From NCBI RefSeq assembly GCF_022647505.1, contig NZ_CP071409.1:1922001-1986000 (forward strand): a stretch of DNA of 64,000 bases, given 5' to 3'. The notes beneath the pieces are model-generated. The model saw only the letters and a program-made list of their open reading frames with translations. It did not search any database and was not told the DNA's origin. The translations under genes were made by a program, and so were the position numbers. Positions 3,049 through 33,397 of this stretch are shown piece after piece. Within the stretch, counting starts at the first letter, position 1. The number at the start of each line of letters is the position of its first letter. Source of the stretch: [Pantoea] beijingensis (GTDB lineage: Bacteria > Pseudomonadota > Gammaproteobacteria > Enterobacterales > Enterobacteriaceae).

Positions 3049-3927
3049 ATGAGCGAAAAGTTACAAAAAGTACTCGCGCGAGCCGGTCACGGTTCACGTC
3101 GTGAAATCGAAACCATGATTTCCGCAGGTCGCGTTAGCGTTGATGGCAAGTTGGCCACGCTGGGCGATCGTATTGAACTCGATAAGTCGCTGAAAATTCG
3201 TATTGATGGCCATCTTGTTTCTATCAGTGAATCCGCAACCGAAGTTTGTCGTGTCCTGGCTTACTATAAGCCGGAAGGTGAACTCTGCACCCGTAATGAT
3301 CCTGAAGGCCGCCCAACCGTATTCGATCGTTTGCCAAAACTGCGTGGCGCGCGCTGGATTGCTGTCGGGCGACTGGATGTGAACACCTGCGGACTTTTAT
3401 TGTTTACTACCGATGGTGAGCTGGCAAATCGCCTGATGCATCCCAGCCAGGAAGTTGAGCGTGAATATGCGGTGCGTGTTTTTGGCCAGATTGATGAAGA
3501 TAAGATTCGCCAACTGAGTCGTGGCGTGCAGTTAGAAGATGGCCCGGCGGCGTTTAAAACCATTAAATTCGCGGGCGGTGAGGGAATCAACCAGTGGTAT
3601 AACGTAACCCTGACGGAAGGGCGTAACCGTGAAGTGCGCCGCCTCTGGGAAGCTGTTGGCGTGCAGGTAAGTCGCCTGATTCGCGTACGCTACGGTGACA
3701 TTTCACTGCCGAAAGGCCTGCCGCGCGCGGGTTGGACAGAACTTGACCTGCAGCCTACTAACTACCTGCGTGAACTGGTAGGGCTGAAGCCTGAAACCGT
3801 GAGTAAGGTGCCGGTTGAAAAAGATCGTCGCCGTACTAAAGCGAATCAGATCCGCCGTGCGGTAAAACGTCATACTCAGGCAAGCGGTAATAATCGTCGT
3901 CCTGCAAAAAGTGCGAAGCGATCTTAA
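3049..3927 (+). CDS. rluB: 23S rRNA pseudouridine(2605) synthase RluB
   Basis: RluB converts U2605 of 23S rRNA to pseudouridine. An N-terminal S4 RNA-binding domain (residues 1-60, with SRREIE) is followed by the RsuA-family catalytic domain, where GRLDVNT holds the catalytic aspartate near residue 110. The tail is rich in Arg and Lys, as in orthologues. An in-frame ATG at 3016 would add 11 residues, but 3049 gives the conserved [19 protein letters not shown] start and is preceded by CGAGG. The product is 292 residues. A hairpin terminator follows at 3998. Confidence 0.95.
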
Positions 3928-29833: not shown

Positions 29834-30194
29834 CTAAGCAATACGTTGGTTTGCTAGTTGGGGAGTGAGAGAAATTTTCACCGGGACGGATTTCGATGTG
29901 GGCGTACCGCTGCTATCACCAAAACTGGAAAGGGGAACCAGTGGATTGGTCTCGGGGTAATAAGCTGCCAGATTACCACGTGGGATAGCATAAGCGACCA
30001 GCTTGAAGCCGCTTACTTTTCGGATAATGCCATCATTCCACAGCGTTTCGATATCGACGTTTTCACCGGCTTCCAGACCGAGTTCCGCGATATCCTCCGG
30101 ATTAATAAACAGCACCTCCCGCTGTACGTAAACGCCACGATAGCGGTCATCCAGGCCATAAATGTAGCGGCTCGCGTTTATCGGTTTTTTGCTG
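29834..30194 (-). pseudogene. 3' remnant of a YdeP-type molybdopterin oxidoreductase
   Basis: About 115 codons of homology survive. Reading on the minus strand, an open frame enters from the inverted repeat (in-frame stop at 30211-30209) and continues as YIYGLDDRYRGVYVQREVLF, INPEDIAELGLEAGENVDI and NLAAYYPETNPLVPL to the stop at 29834. These are the C-terminal molybdopterin-dinucleotide-binding motifs of the FdhF/YdeP group, whose full proteins are around 750 residues. The N-terminal five sixths are missing and the break coincides with the left inverted repeat of the element at 30195-32820. It cannot encode an active enzyme. Confidence 0.85.
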
Positions 30195-30274
30195 ACATTA
30201 ACTGCAACTTACAATTCACCTCTCGACGCCACCAATCGTTCATTTTGGGTATACCACAACCAGAAAAAACCATG
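30195..30274 (+). repeat. Left copy of 80-bp inverted repeat
   Basis: Compared with the reverse complement of 32741-32820 it differs at 6 of 80 positions. The inner 33 bases and a 24-base block (30217-30240) are identical. The inner end runs into the omptin terminator. Confidence 0.9.
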
Positions 30275-30302
30275 GGATACGGAAATGTCTCATGGTTTTT
30301 TG
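30262..30302 (-). terminator. Omptin gene terminator (bidirectional)
   Basis: AAAAAACCATG (30264-30274) and CATGGTTTTTT (30291-30301) form an 11-bp stem with A/T tails on both sides. It begins 25 bases after the omptin stop codon and can end transcription from either side. Half of it is part of the left inverted repeat. Confidence 0.8.
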
Positions 30303-30326
30303 TATATGCTGGCATTAACTGCCCGC

Positions 30327-31277
30327 TCAGAAGCGGTACTGTAGACCCGCTGTCAGGCTATAATTTTTATTTTCGATACCAGCTACATCGCCGCCCTCAT
30401 GGCTCGATTCGCCACTTACACGGTCAATTACCTGCGTCCCCCCTTTACCCTGAGAGTATTTGCTCCAGGTAAACTCGGTGAATACTTTGGCGTTAGGGGT
30501 AACGTAATAACCTACATCCATCGAGGCCGAATAATAGTTGGAGCCGCTGGTCTTTTCACGGAAGGTCAAATCACGCATGTAGTGCTCATCGTTGTCTCTG
30601 GCTTCAACCCAGGGGCTGAACTTCAACAATGCATTAAATTCAATATCCCGATACCGATAGCCGCCAGCCAGACCGACGTATGGCATACTGAATTTTTGCT
30701 GGTAGCCAATTCCGCGCTCTCCGCGAGGGAAATCGCCGACGTAGTTGCCGTTATCATACTGGTAGTGACCGCCAAAAGCAGTCCAGCTAAAACGGGTCTG
30801 TTGGTAACCAACTACCGCACCTACTTTATAATCAGAGCGTTTTACCAGCCAGGCTTTGGCATTGATATCAAATTCATTAGCATGATTAAGGCGGGTATTC
30901 GGGCTGTTTGACCAGTCAGTCCAATGTGACTGGCTGGTATCCAGCCAGTCGTAATCATCCATTCCCGCTCCACTTGAGGCCAATGTGGTCCAACCCCTTG
31001 CATTCAGCGTTAACCAAAAAAGCGGATCCCAGGAAATATCACCTTTAATGATGGCTGTATTGTTGATCTTCCAGTTGAGTTCGCTAACCTTTCTGCCGTT
31101 ATCGTCGTCATACACAAACTCTTTAGACTCACCGCCAAGCCAACCCAACGAGGTATTGACGGTTATGCTATCGGCAGCAAAATTAACGGAATAAGGTCCT
31201 TTCTCATTTTGAGCCAGGGTGACATTAGTTGCCGCTAAACCTAAAATTCCAAACTTTATCATGTATTTATTCATCAT
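30327..31277 (-). CDS. Omptin-family outer-membrane protease (Pla/PgtE/OmpT type)
   Basis: An outer-membrane aspartyl-type protease forming a 10-stranded barrel. The 316-residue precursor has a signal peptide ending around VTLA-QN (residue 22). The catalytic aspartate pair is D108/D110 in GMDDYDW and the Asp-His dyad D230/H232 in DNDEHYMRD; the 120-residue spacing is that of Yersinia Pla. It ends in YRF, the usual barrel end. ATG 31277 has AAAGGA upstream and is preferred to the longer frame from 31367. Omptins cleave host defence peptides and plasminogen; a homologue (PlaA) is known in Erwinia. It is the only intact gene in the element. Confidence 0.9.
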   Translation of the reverse strand: MMNKYMIKFGILGLAATNVTLAQNEKGPYSVNFAADSITVNTSLGWLGGESKEFVYDDDNGRKVSELNWKINNTAIIKGDISWDPLFWLTLNARGWTTLASSGAGMDDYDWLDTSQSHWTDWSNSPNTRLNHANEFDINAKAWLVKRSDYKVGAVVGYQQTRFSWTAFGGHYQYDNGNYVGDFPRGERGIGYQQKFSMPYVGLAGGYRYRDIEFNALLKFSPWVEARDNDEHYMRDLTFREKTSGSNYYSASMDVGYYVTPNAKVFTEFTWSKYSQGKGGTQVIDRVSGESSHEGGDVAGIENKNYSLTAGLQYRF

Positions 31278-31331
31278 TAACCATTCCTTTGACAATAGAC
31301 GAGGACCTGATTTCAGGCCGGTCAGACCTGA

Positions 31332-31378
31332 AAGCAAGTAAGTTGCCTCTGGCACTGTTAAAGGCAACTTACTTGCTT
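31332..31378. repeat. Perfect 16-bp inverted repeat upstream of the omptin gene
   Basis: AAGCAAGTAAGTTGCC (31332-31347) and its exact complement (31363-31378) enclose a 15-base loop. It lies 55-101 bases before the omptin start and just beyond the stop codon of the ATPase remnant (31387). It could be a processing hairpin or a terminator for the remnant; there is no T run after it on the minus strand. Confidence 0.85.
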
Positions 31379-31386
31379 ATAAACCC

Positions 31387-31829
31387 TCAAATTGGCAGCC
31401 CGATGGCCAGCAGCCGATCGCGGAACTCTGACGACCTGACAGGGTCGAGCTGATTATTGAAGAAGGCCCGAATCTCTGCCAGCCTGGCGTCAAACAATTC
31501 CCCCATTTCTTTCAGACGATACCCATGACGCGTCAGGGCAGGTTCCAGATCATTCAACAGCCGCGAAAGTACCGACTCAATCAACGATACTGTTATAGGC
31601 TTCTCTCCGGTCTGATAACTGGCTTCAATGGCCAGCGTCAGATGCAGATGGATCTGCAAAGGCGTACGCAGTATCTCAGCCAGCAGTTCGATAGCTTCGG
31701 TTGTCAGGGTATCTCCGGTTTGCAGTGTTCCGCGCAGGCACTGAGCAGCCAGTGGATATCATGGTCGAACTCCACGAACATTTCGTCGTCAAACAGATCC
31801 CACTTGAGAAAAACCGTTTCAACGGCCAT
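31387..31829 (-). pseudogene. Remnant of a transposition helper AAA ATPase
   Basis: Two frames joined at about 31740 read as one degenerate protein: an N-terminal part ending FVEFDHDIHWLLS and, after a one-base frameshift, CLRGTLQTGDTL, LLAEILRTPLQIHLHLTLAI, NDLEPALTRHGYRLKEMGEL and RSSEFRDRLLAIGLPI. The second part resembles, from memory, the C-terminus of TniB/ExeA-like ATPases found beside Mu-type transposases. The N-terminal ATPase core with Walker motifs is absent. The 90-codon frame from 31659 alone is unlikely to be a gene. Confidence 0.6.
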
Positions 31830-31860
31830 ATCCGGCTCCACTTAATAGACGGCGCCGTCG

Positions 31861-32160
31861 ACCGTCACTTGAGCATCTCCCCCAACAATATTCCTGATAG
31901 GTGACGCCACTGCGATCGTATACGACGCTGAATATCGTCAGTGTCGGTACTCCATTTTGGCGGGATCAACCCATTCTGGCTGTTCAATATGTTTGAGATC
32001 GGAAAGAGACATATCGAACGGCCAGCAGTCATTGCTGTATTCCGCCTGAAACCTGACGGCCGGAGGTTCCCGTAATAAACGGGACTGGTCGAGGCGAAAC
32101 CGGGAGATATAACGTCCACTGTCTGGCGACGTTGCAATCCTGGTGGCACTTTGATCAGCC
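31861..32160 (-). pseudogene. Remnant of a Mu/Tn552-type DDE transposase
   Basis: Fragments in shifting frames: KVPPGLQRRQTVDVIS (about 32151-32104), then REPPAVRFQAEYSNDCWPFD and MSLSDLKHIEQPEWVDPAKM (about 32075-31945), and YDRSGVTYQEY at 31920-31888. The WPFDMSLSDLKH segment corresponds to the start of the rve integrase core, whose first aspartate is in this position. Stops and frameshifts interrupt it and most of the core is missing. It was recognised by family memory, not by search. Confidence 0.65.
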
Positions 32161-32299
32161 CCTGACCAATCTCGACTCCATGCTCCTCAAGTAATTATAT
32201 CGCCCTGGACGTCGACAGGTGACGATCGTATTTGTTGGTAGTACTCAGTTTAAGGGCGGCAATAATCTTGCAATACAGCGCCGAGGTGGACAACACCCT

Positions 32300-32647
32300 G
32301 GGTTTGCCATGATCGCGGCGGTATGCGGTTTCAGGTCACGCCGGAGAGCCCGGTAGACCGATGCCCGATCAATCCCAAGCGTACGGGCGATGGTGGTTGC
32401 CCCATTTTTCATCCACATAGAGGCGATGGACTTCGGCCGGATCAATGTAAGGTTTGCGGTCACGGTAGACACCGCGCACTTTTGCCGCGATCCCCTCCAG
32501 CTGCCATTCGGAACACCCCTTTCGACTGACACCGCTGGCTTTTTCTGCACGAATAACTTCACAGCCGGCATCGCGCAGGATTTGCGTCTGTAAGACCAGA
32601 TCCTGAGCGTTGGTTGAAACGCGGGCGTACCCATACATAATGGTCAT
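32300..32647 (-). pseudogene. Serine resolvase (Tn3 family) with internal deletion
   Basis: The N-terminus MYGYARVSTNAQDLVLQTQI with the catalytic serine of YARVST is followed by EVIRAEKASGVSRKG. The frame then jumps directly to the C-terminal DNA-binding part (WQLEGIAAKVRGVYRDRKP), so about 80 residues of the catalytic core (including the usual RLARS and FAEFE motifs) are missing. A second frameshift near 32395 puts the helix-turn-helix (TTIARTLGIDRASVYRALR) in another frame. Not functional. Confidence 0.85.
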
Positions 32648-32740
32648 ATTTGCTTGAAATGTATCATTTGCCTCTAGATGGAAGGAAGATAGCGCGAGGG
32701 TACATTAAAAAAAACGTTTAATTAGACATAAAAAGCGGTT

Positions 32741-32820
32741 CATGGTTTTTTCTGGTTGTGGTATACCCAAAATTAACGATTGGTGGCGTCGAGAGGTGGA
32801 TTTTGATTTGCAGTTATTGT
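32741..32820 (-). repeat. Right copy of 80-bp inverted repeat
   Basis: Inverted partner of 30195-30274 with 74 of 80 positions identical. Just outside, weaker similarity continues on both sides (for example GATAAACGCGAGC at 32858-32870 and, inverted, at 30171-30183). Confidence 0.9.
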
Positions 32821-32911
32821 GAGCACGGGCACGGGAATGGTGATTGCGAGCATGAAAAGATAAACGCGAGCATGTGGGTTTTCAGACGCGACCCGCTACA
32901 CATACGGTTGA

Positions 32912-33397
32912 CGTTGGCATTGGTTTTTTGAGCTTACTACGCTGCGTGAACTTCATTTTCAGGTCGAATCTCTGAAGGATAATGGCACTGAGCTGTTATT
33001 CCATCCCCGGCATTTTCCTCAACTGGTCGATGAACGACCGCTACAGCTCGATCAGGTAGCAGGCATTCCGCTTTGTTTAGCGGAATCGACGCGCTACTTT
33101 CGTCGTTATCTTGATGTGCATTTTCGCGAGGCGGAAGTTCCTTTGCGACTGATTATGGAAAGCAGTTCTATTTTCCAGTTATTGCAAGGTGTACAGGTAG
33201 GTCTGGGGTGTTTGATTACGCCGGTTGGTCATTTACTCACGGAAATGGCACCGGAGTTAGGCTGCCGTAGGCTGGCTATCGCGCCTATGTCGCGCCAGGC
33301 TGCGGTGGTAATTGCCGAACCAGGCTGGGCGACGCCGTTGTCGCAGCATTTTTTTGATGAGGTTCGACGCTGGCTGGCGACAATGTTAGCGGAATAG
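32912..33397 (+). pseudogene. 3' remnant of a LysR-type regulator
   Basis: The open frame from 32912 to the stop at 33397 encodes only the effector domain: FELTTLRELHFQVESLKDNG, HPRHFPQLVDERPLQL, AGIPLCLAESTRYF and GVQVGLGCLITP. The helix-turn-helix half is missing. The GTTGGCATTGGTTTTTT segment just upstream would read VGIGFF only if one T is added, so a frameshift in the T run at 32924-32929 is likely too. It points away from the ydeP remnant, as expected of a regulator once divergent from its target. Confidence 0.8.

Follow-up and report, generated by a model that had tools for sequence, protein, structure and literature searches.

We describe a locus in a 64,000-nucleotide stretch of the [Pantoea] beijingensis chromosome (hereafter, the window; contig NZ_CP071409.1, positions 1,922,001 to 1,986,000), at which a decayed transposon carrying a gene for an omptin, an outer-membrane protease, lies between the remnants of a ydeP-like oxidoreductase gene and a lysR regulator gene. 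From left to right, the order is rnb, ydeP remnant, 2,738-bp element, lysR remnant, and yciW/fabI, with the reading frames of rnb and yciW/fabI intact on either side. The Pfam domains along the locus are, in order, Molydop_binding, Omptin, a partial Resolvase, and LysR_substrate. An original prediction, made from the letters and their open reading frames, had given 29834-33397 as the extent of a transposon remnant. This extent fits the element plus both gene remnants, while the element proper spans 30163-32900. The locus comprises:

29834..30162, minus strand: C-terminal remnant of a ydeP/FdhF-family molybdopterin oxidoreductase gene (Pfam Molydop_binding, E = 6.7e-7; domain-bearing frame 29834-30208)
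30163..30277, unstranded: left inverted repeat with intact tip TGTAGCGGCTCGCGTTT, internally shortened (17/17 tip bases shared with the Izhakiella element described below)
30327..31274, minus strand: omptin gene, intact, 315 amino acids, the element's cargo (Pfam PF01278, 1.8e-125)
31332..31378, unstranded: 17-nt perfect inverted repeat with a 13-nt loop, between the tniB stop and the omptin start (repeat search)
31387..31759, minus strand: tniB-like AAA+ ATPase remnant, C-terminal ~116 of 322 codons, one frameshift
31759..31877, minus strand: tniA-like DDE transposase remnant, second piece, one premature stop
31888..32361, minus strand: tniA-like DDE transposase remnant, first piece, frameshifts and a stop
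32345..32638, minus strand: serine resolvase remnant, internal 219-nt deletion and a frameshift (Pfam Resolvase, 5.5e-5, partial)
32741..32900, unstranded: right inverted repeat including the tip, directly abutting lysR sequence (38/42 tip bases shared with the Izhakiella element)
32901..33397, plus strand: C-terminal remnant of a LysR-type regulator gene, 1-base deletion near its start (Pfam LysR_substrate, 1.1e-10)

The element is bounded by long inverted repeats that match over 85 nt at 92%, with a further 13-nt match at their outer ends. A truncated left tip was considered but rejected, because the tip is there and what is missing lies inside the repeat.

As predicted, the ydeP fragment is C-terminal and points left. 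About one seventh of the gene remains, not the sixth first estimated: the fragment corresponds to residues 661-769 of 769 (659-769 in a second comparison) of a relative's protein, at 88% amino acid identity. The intact relative of the fragment, from locus L032, scores 911.7 bits against the YdeP model TIGR01701 (cut-off 582). The rightward lysR fragment retains the C-terminal ~54% of the gene, matching residues 146-297 of a 298-residue protein, which agrees with the predicted half; its 1-base deletion adds to the earlier description.

The omptin gene, already singled out as intact in the original prediction, matches profile positions 2-283 of 283 of PF01278 (418 bits, cut-off 22.6) and also exceeds the cut-off of NCBIfam NF008223 (472.9 versus 467 bits). 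Its motifs DDYDW and DNDEH, in which we take the catalytic Asp-Asp and Asp-His pairs of omptins to lie, align without gaps to two solved chains, both of the plague omptin. No second omptin was found in the window's genome. The intact omptin is now a chromosomal gene of the strain and can probably still yield an outer-membrane protease.

Relatives of the element on plasmids

A distant search of plasmids with positions 30160-32900 matched 958 records. A single record covers at least 80% of this query in one place: Serratia marcescens plasmid pWVU-009 (NZ_CP041133.1), which matches 99% of the query at 88.3% nucleotide identity. This match is far beyond chance. Of 27 loci found with the omptin as query in genomes taken one per species, the best (90% amino acid identity) is on a plasmid contig of Izhakiella australiensis, NZ_MRUL01000025.1. 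This contig carries a complete element of 4,832 bp, in which the genes are whole: a resolvase of 184 amino acids, a DDE transposase of 553, an AAA+ ATPase of 322, and an omptin of 315. Its inverted repeats of 264 nt match at 93%, have the tip TGTAGCGGCTCGCG, and are flanked by a 6-bp duplication, TATAAG.

The pWVU-009 copy is 91.2% identical to the Izhakiella element over 100% of its length. Its transposase and resolvase genes are in pieces of different frames, and its two flanks do not match each other. The Izhakiella and Serratia copies have gene order, inverted repeats, and tips in common with the window element, and the omptin is 90% identical at the amino acid level. These two copies are plasmid-borne, whereas the window copy is chromosomal.

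Other relatives have the transposition genes without the omptin. Two further S. marcescens plasmids (AP028524.1 and NZ_MT039168.1) carry a resolvase, an IS481-like DDE transposase, and an AAA+ ATPase in the window order, and Salmonella plasmids carry ~76% relatives with the same three-gene order. In the Salmonella plasmids among the 30 records listed of 387 matched by the Izhakiella element, the match ends at query positions 3489-3491 of 4832, which is the tniB end. Conversely, an omptin of Kosakonia, 79% identical, is homologous to the cassette from the tniB stop to just beyond the omptin stop; the element's transposition genes and repeats have no match within 20.9 kb around it. On these alignments, the cargo slot starts at the tniB stop.

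We read the tips and duplications of six elements by eye. An exact 6-bp duplication is present at two of the six (the Izhakiella element and one on contig C2 of genome G027), and a five-of-six match at one (AP028524.1). The duplication is missing from three: Serratia pWVU-009, NZ_MT039168.1, of which one tip deviates from the pattern, and the window element. The G027 element (L047, 5565-9728), on a 38-kb contig of another member of the window's genus, is a cargo-less relative with full-length matches to all three transposition genes, in the window order, and the duplication GCTATG.

Within the genus, 37 genomes including the window's own were searched for the whole element, with up to eight candidate places per genome scored. 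The whole element was matched in none of the 36 others. The matches in 12 of these 36 are to omptins at a greater distance, to segments like those of related transposons, or to part of an omptin. One genome holds a short omptin remnant (L048, G013:C88, 7104-7315) consisting of the start region and a C-terminal piece, which are 81-88% identical; it shares the upstream region as well, and the 14 kb around it gave no match to a transposon gene.

The layout of the transposon resembles known families to different degrees. Tn552 encodes a DDE transposase, an ATPase, and a serine resolvase between long inverted repeats, with a 6-7-bp duplication. Tn402/Tn5053 elements carry tniA, tniB, tniQ, and resolvase genes, 25-bp terminal repeats, and a 5-bp duplication. 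The Izhakiella element has res, tniA, tniB, and the omptin gene. It lacks tniQ, for which its end spans of 331 and 286 bases are too short, and differs further from Tn402/Tn5053 in its 264-nt repeats and 6-bp duplication. Gene layout, long repeats, and duplication length agree with Tn552, and by these general features the layout appears nearer Tn552 than Tn402/Tn5053. The best NCBIfam model for the transposase is IS481, at 74 against a cut-off of 224, that is, below it.

Loss of the ydeP-lysR pair

For the ydeP-lysR locus, 18 of the other 36 genus members were used, chosen among the stronger matches and not at random. A full-length ydeP (768-791 amino acids) adjoins rnb in all 18, and a full-length divergent lysR (298-328 amino acids) adjoins yciW in 17. 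Element-free relatives thus do not show the truncations seen in the window. By DNA, the end region of ydeP is matched in all 35 other genus genomes of one comparison (row count) and that of lysR in 31 of 37. No other full ydeP of the same kind was found in the window's genome, which holds only two weak, distant matches.

The distance between the two genes varies widely. With first-start calling in the 17 relatives, the starts are 235, 306, and 781 bp apart in three and 1.9-7.8 kb apart in 14. In the two closest cases (L044 of G017 and L050 of G009, at 235 and 306 bp), ydeP and lysR are close divergent neighbors, as the original prediction had expected of relatives. In the four relatives nearest by rnb among those taken (91-93% amino acid identity), 4.0-7.8 kb lie between the genes; the interval in L032 holds an EAL-domain protein, RsxA, and a PTS IIBC-like transporter. 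The predicted replacement of the center of a divergent pair by an omptin-bearing transposon remnant thus agrees with the relatives. Its restriction to the middle of the two genes may be too narrow, since the longer intervals in the nearest relatives suggest that the loss may exceed it. By this comparison, at least about 2.6 kb would have been lost at the window locus, and perhaps 6-10 kb. Such a spread of interval lengths (0.2-7.8 kb) points to a hot spot where genes are gained and lost.

An alignment with 12 relatives locates the edges of the element precisely. The ydeP homology ends at the left tip (~30163), and the lysR DNA homology begins at 32901, the base after the right tip. The hexamers flanking the element are CATAAA and CATACG. 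A 6-bp target duplication was rejected: both sextets align as native ydeP and lysR sequence. Homology that ends exactly at both tips, without a target duplication, indicates that the loss was probably made by adjacent deletion or two-copy recombination. A random deletion would hardly end at both tips to the base, which argues that the loss was linked to transposition or recombination.

We conclude that the locus is very probably the relic of a transposon with DDE transposase, AAA+ ATPase, and serine resolvase genes that carried an omptin, and that the element itself, or recombination between two copies of it, made the loss. The element, or two copies, would have entered the ydeP-lysR region. 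By one route, intramolecular transposition would have produced an adjacent deletion running from one tip to a new target. By the other, homologous or resolvase recombination would have occurred between a copy in ydeP and a copy in lysR. Either event would have removed ydeP codons 1 to ~660, the intervening DNA, and lysR codons 1 to ~137. Internal deletions and point lesions would then have broken the resolvase, transposase, and ATPase genes and shortened the left repeat, fixing the element in place.

Several observations weigh against this conclusion or blur its detail. In one of the 18 relatives (L046, G027:C1), lysR and yciW were not found 3' of ydeP within a 16-kb stretch. Six of the 37 genomes have no DNA match to the lysR region, although two of these six have lysR by protein (L034 of G031 and L044 of G017); one of the six is the genome of L046. 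Both routes leave a single element without a duplication, and this one end product cannot separate them. No relative with the element at this site was found. Finally, the window flanks share four of six bases, the first four, so that a degraded duplication is formally conceivable. This shared CATA would suit a different history, in which a deletion first joined ydeP to lysR and a transposon later hit the joint, its 6-bp duplication having since mutated. Such a history is highly improbable: the sextets are the genes' own sequence in the alignment of relatives, and the element would have to hit the joint exactly.

Decay of the element and possible constraint on the omptin

Compared with the Izhakiella copy, the window element has four large deletions of 219, 146, 501, and 1,002 nt, and part of its left inverted repeat is lost. 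Two of the deletions sit between matching stretches of 12 and 17 nt; at one, the join has 10 additional bases. Over 1,266 aligned columns, the broken genes carry seven small indels, five of them frameshifts, and two stops. From these lesions, the transposition genes of the window element are dead. No second transposase copy was found elsewhere in the window's genome.

In contrast to these genes, the omptin has no indel and no stop in 945 aligned columns. Indels were counted as window-only by comparison with four other copies for the transposition genes and two for the omptin. The chance that all seven inactivating lesions fall outside the omptin is 0.020, or 0.007 for all nine lesions including two in-frame deletions (computed with 1,268 broken-gene columns, against 1,266 in the alignment count). 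For the four large deletions, all of which spare the omptin, the chance is 0.13.

Nonsynonymous (N) and synonymous (S) changes were counted as window-only against two copies (Izhakiella and Serratia) for both gene sets, in alignable blocks only. The script reported one "stop" on each of the Izhakiella and Serratia branches, which we take as a codon-context artifact because the Izhakiella genes are open. On the window branch, the omptin has 20 N and 19 S changes and the broken genes 44 N and 43 S (Fisher test, P = 1.0), with per-site N/S ratios of 0.29 and 0.33, respectively. Across the omptin and broken genes, the ratios on the Izhakiella and Serratia branches are 0.07-0.11. On the window branch, the omptin ratio is higher by a factor of two to three than on the Izhakiella branch (0.10; P = 0.026) and the Serratia branch (0.11; P = 0.07), as would be expected under relaxed or altered selection. 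The N changes of the omptin are below the unconstrained expectation (20 versus 30.6; P = 1.4e-4). Those of the broken genes are likewise below it (44 versus 65.7; P = 4e-7), because the branch includes time before the element's death.

Pairwise ratios of nonsynonymous to synonymous substitution rates (dN/dS) are 0.125-0.134 for the omptin and 0.06-0.09 for the broken tniB piece. As the latter is also low, the low omptin value would mostly predate the element's death. We therefore rejected pairwise dN/dS as proof of selection on the omptin. The amino acid changes number 17 in the window omptin, 12 in that of Izhakiella, and 11 in that of Serratia, and none alters a position whose ancestral residue is shared by at least 90% of 39 other omptins. 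New residues unseen in other omptins make up 3 of the 17, 1 of the 12, and 0 of the 11, respectively.

The original prediction also proposed that the omptin has been kept by selection, for which the evidence is weak and divided. Host selection may be keeping the omptin while the remainder of the element decays, an account to which we give slightly less than even weight. The lesion-free frame speaks for it, as do the deficit of N changes against the unconstrained expectation and the failure to find another omptin in the genome. The N/S proportions on the window branch speak against it, being the same as in the broken genes, which show the same deficit, and dN/dS thus does not favor selection after the element's death. 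The raised omptin ratio relative to the other two branches also counts against it, and large deletions sparing the omptin are not improbable by chance. The intact conserved columns are equally a property of the Izhakiella and Serratia omptins, and three of the window's new residues are unseen elsewhere. Alternatively, the omptin may be a hitchhiker that has merely not yet been hit, which we hold just as tentatively. Its N/S equality with the broken genes is what such survival would produce, and the low pairwise dN/dS is common to the broken tniB piece, yet the lesion count (P = 0.02) is awkward for it. By these counts, domestication and mere survival appear about equally likely.

Mobile omptins and their vehicles

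The guanine-plus-cytosine (GC) content of the omptin gene is 0.47, against 0.53 in rnb, 0.55 in yciW, and 0.52 in fabI. This difference from its neighbors, a comparison proposed in the original prediction, would fit acquisition from a foreign source; the omptin of Izhakiella has 0.47 as well. When omptins spread laterally, their vehicle is usually given no more precisely than "on a plasmid" or "in a prophage". Here, the vehicle is bounded and is seen in three states: complete, with broken transposition genes, and as a dead chromosomal copy. From these states, its capture of the cargo, its movement, the damage done on landing, and its later decay can be followed. The locus is a plain instance, of a fairly ordinary kind, of a chromosome reshaped by mobile DNA. 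It also carries a warning: when a cargo gene is left stranded, its low pairwise dN/dS tells little of selection in the host where it now resides, since a broken neighbor gene has low dN/dS too.

A more far-reaching reading, which we regard as rather doubtful when taken whole, is that this transposon lineage caught one omptin once, between tniB and the inverted repeat. It would since have moved omptins between plasmid and chromosome in at least three genera (Izhakiella, Serratia, and Erwinia), clearing genes on landing; at the window locus, the vehicle would be dead and the protease domesticated.

Omptins are described as an established, horizontally spread family (PMC3048539). On a Citrobacter plasmid, a 5-kb inverted repeat that has resolvases and transposases is described next to pPCP1-like DNA that includes Pla (PMC4793686). 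Going by that description alone, its arrangement may be a related case. Kop, an omptin of Klebsiella plasmids, is 63% identical to the window omptin, whose gene differs in that a defined transposon carries it. The literature searched, which lacks most subscription papers, yielded no report of a defined transposon with an omptin cargo. This is the part that is apparently new; the omptin family and its horizontal spread were already known.

Omptins were also sought in viral contigs, with one pattern match (1 of 8 scans) and none confirmed. A comparison with E. coli genomes gave no near match. The Izhakiella and Serratia copies have a similar region at the site of the 17-nt inverted repeat (31332-31378), and next to the transposon-free Kosakonia omptin this region is degenerate. 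The repeat may thus belong to the omptin module, as an operator or terminator. Genome G018, the source of locus L032 and among the relatives nearest by rnb, encodes three different omptins that are 65, 53, and 48% identical to that of the window.

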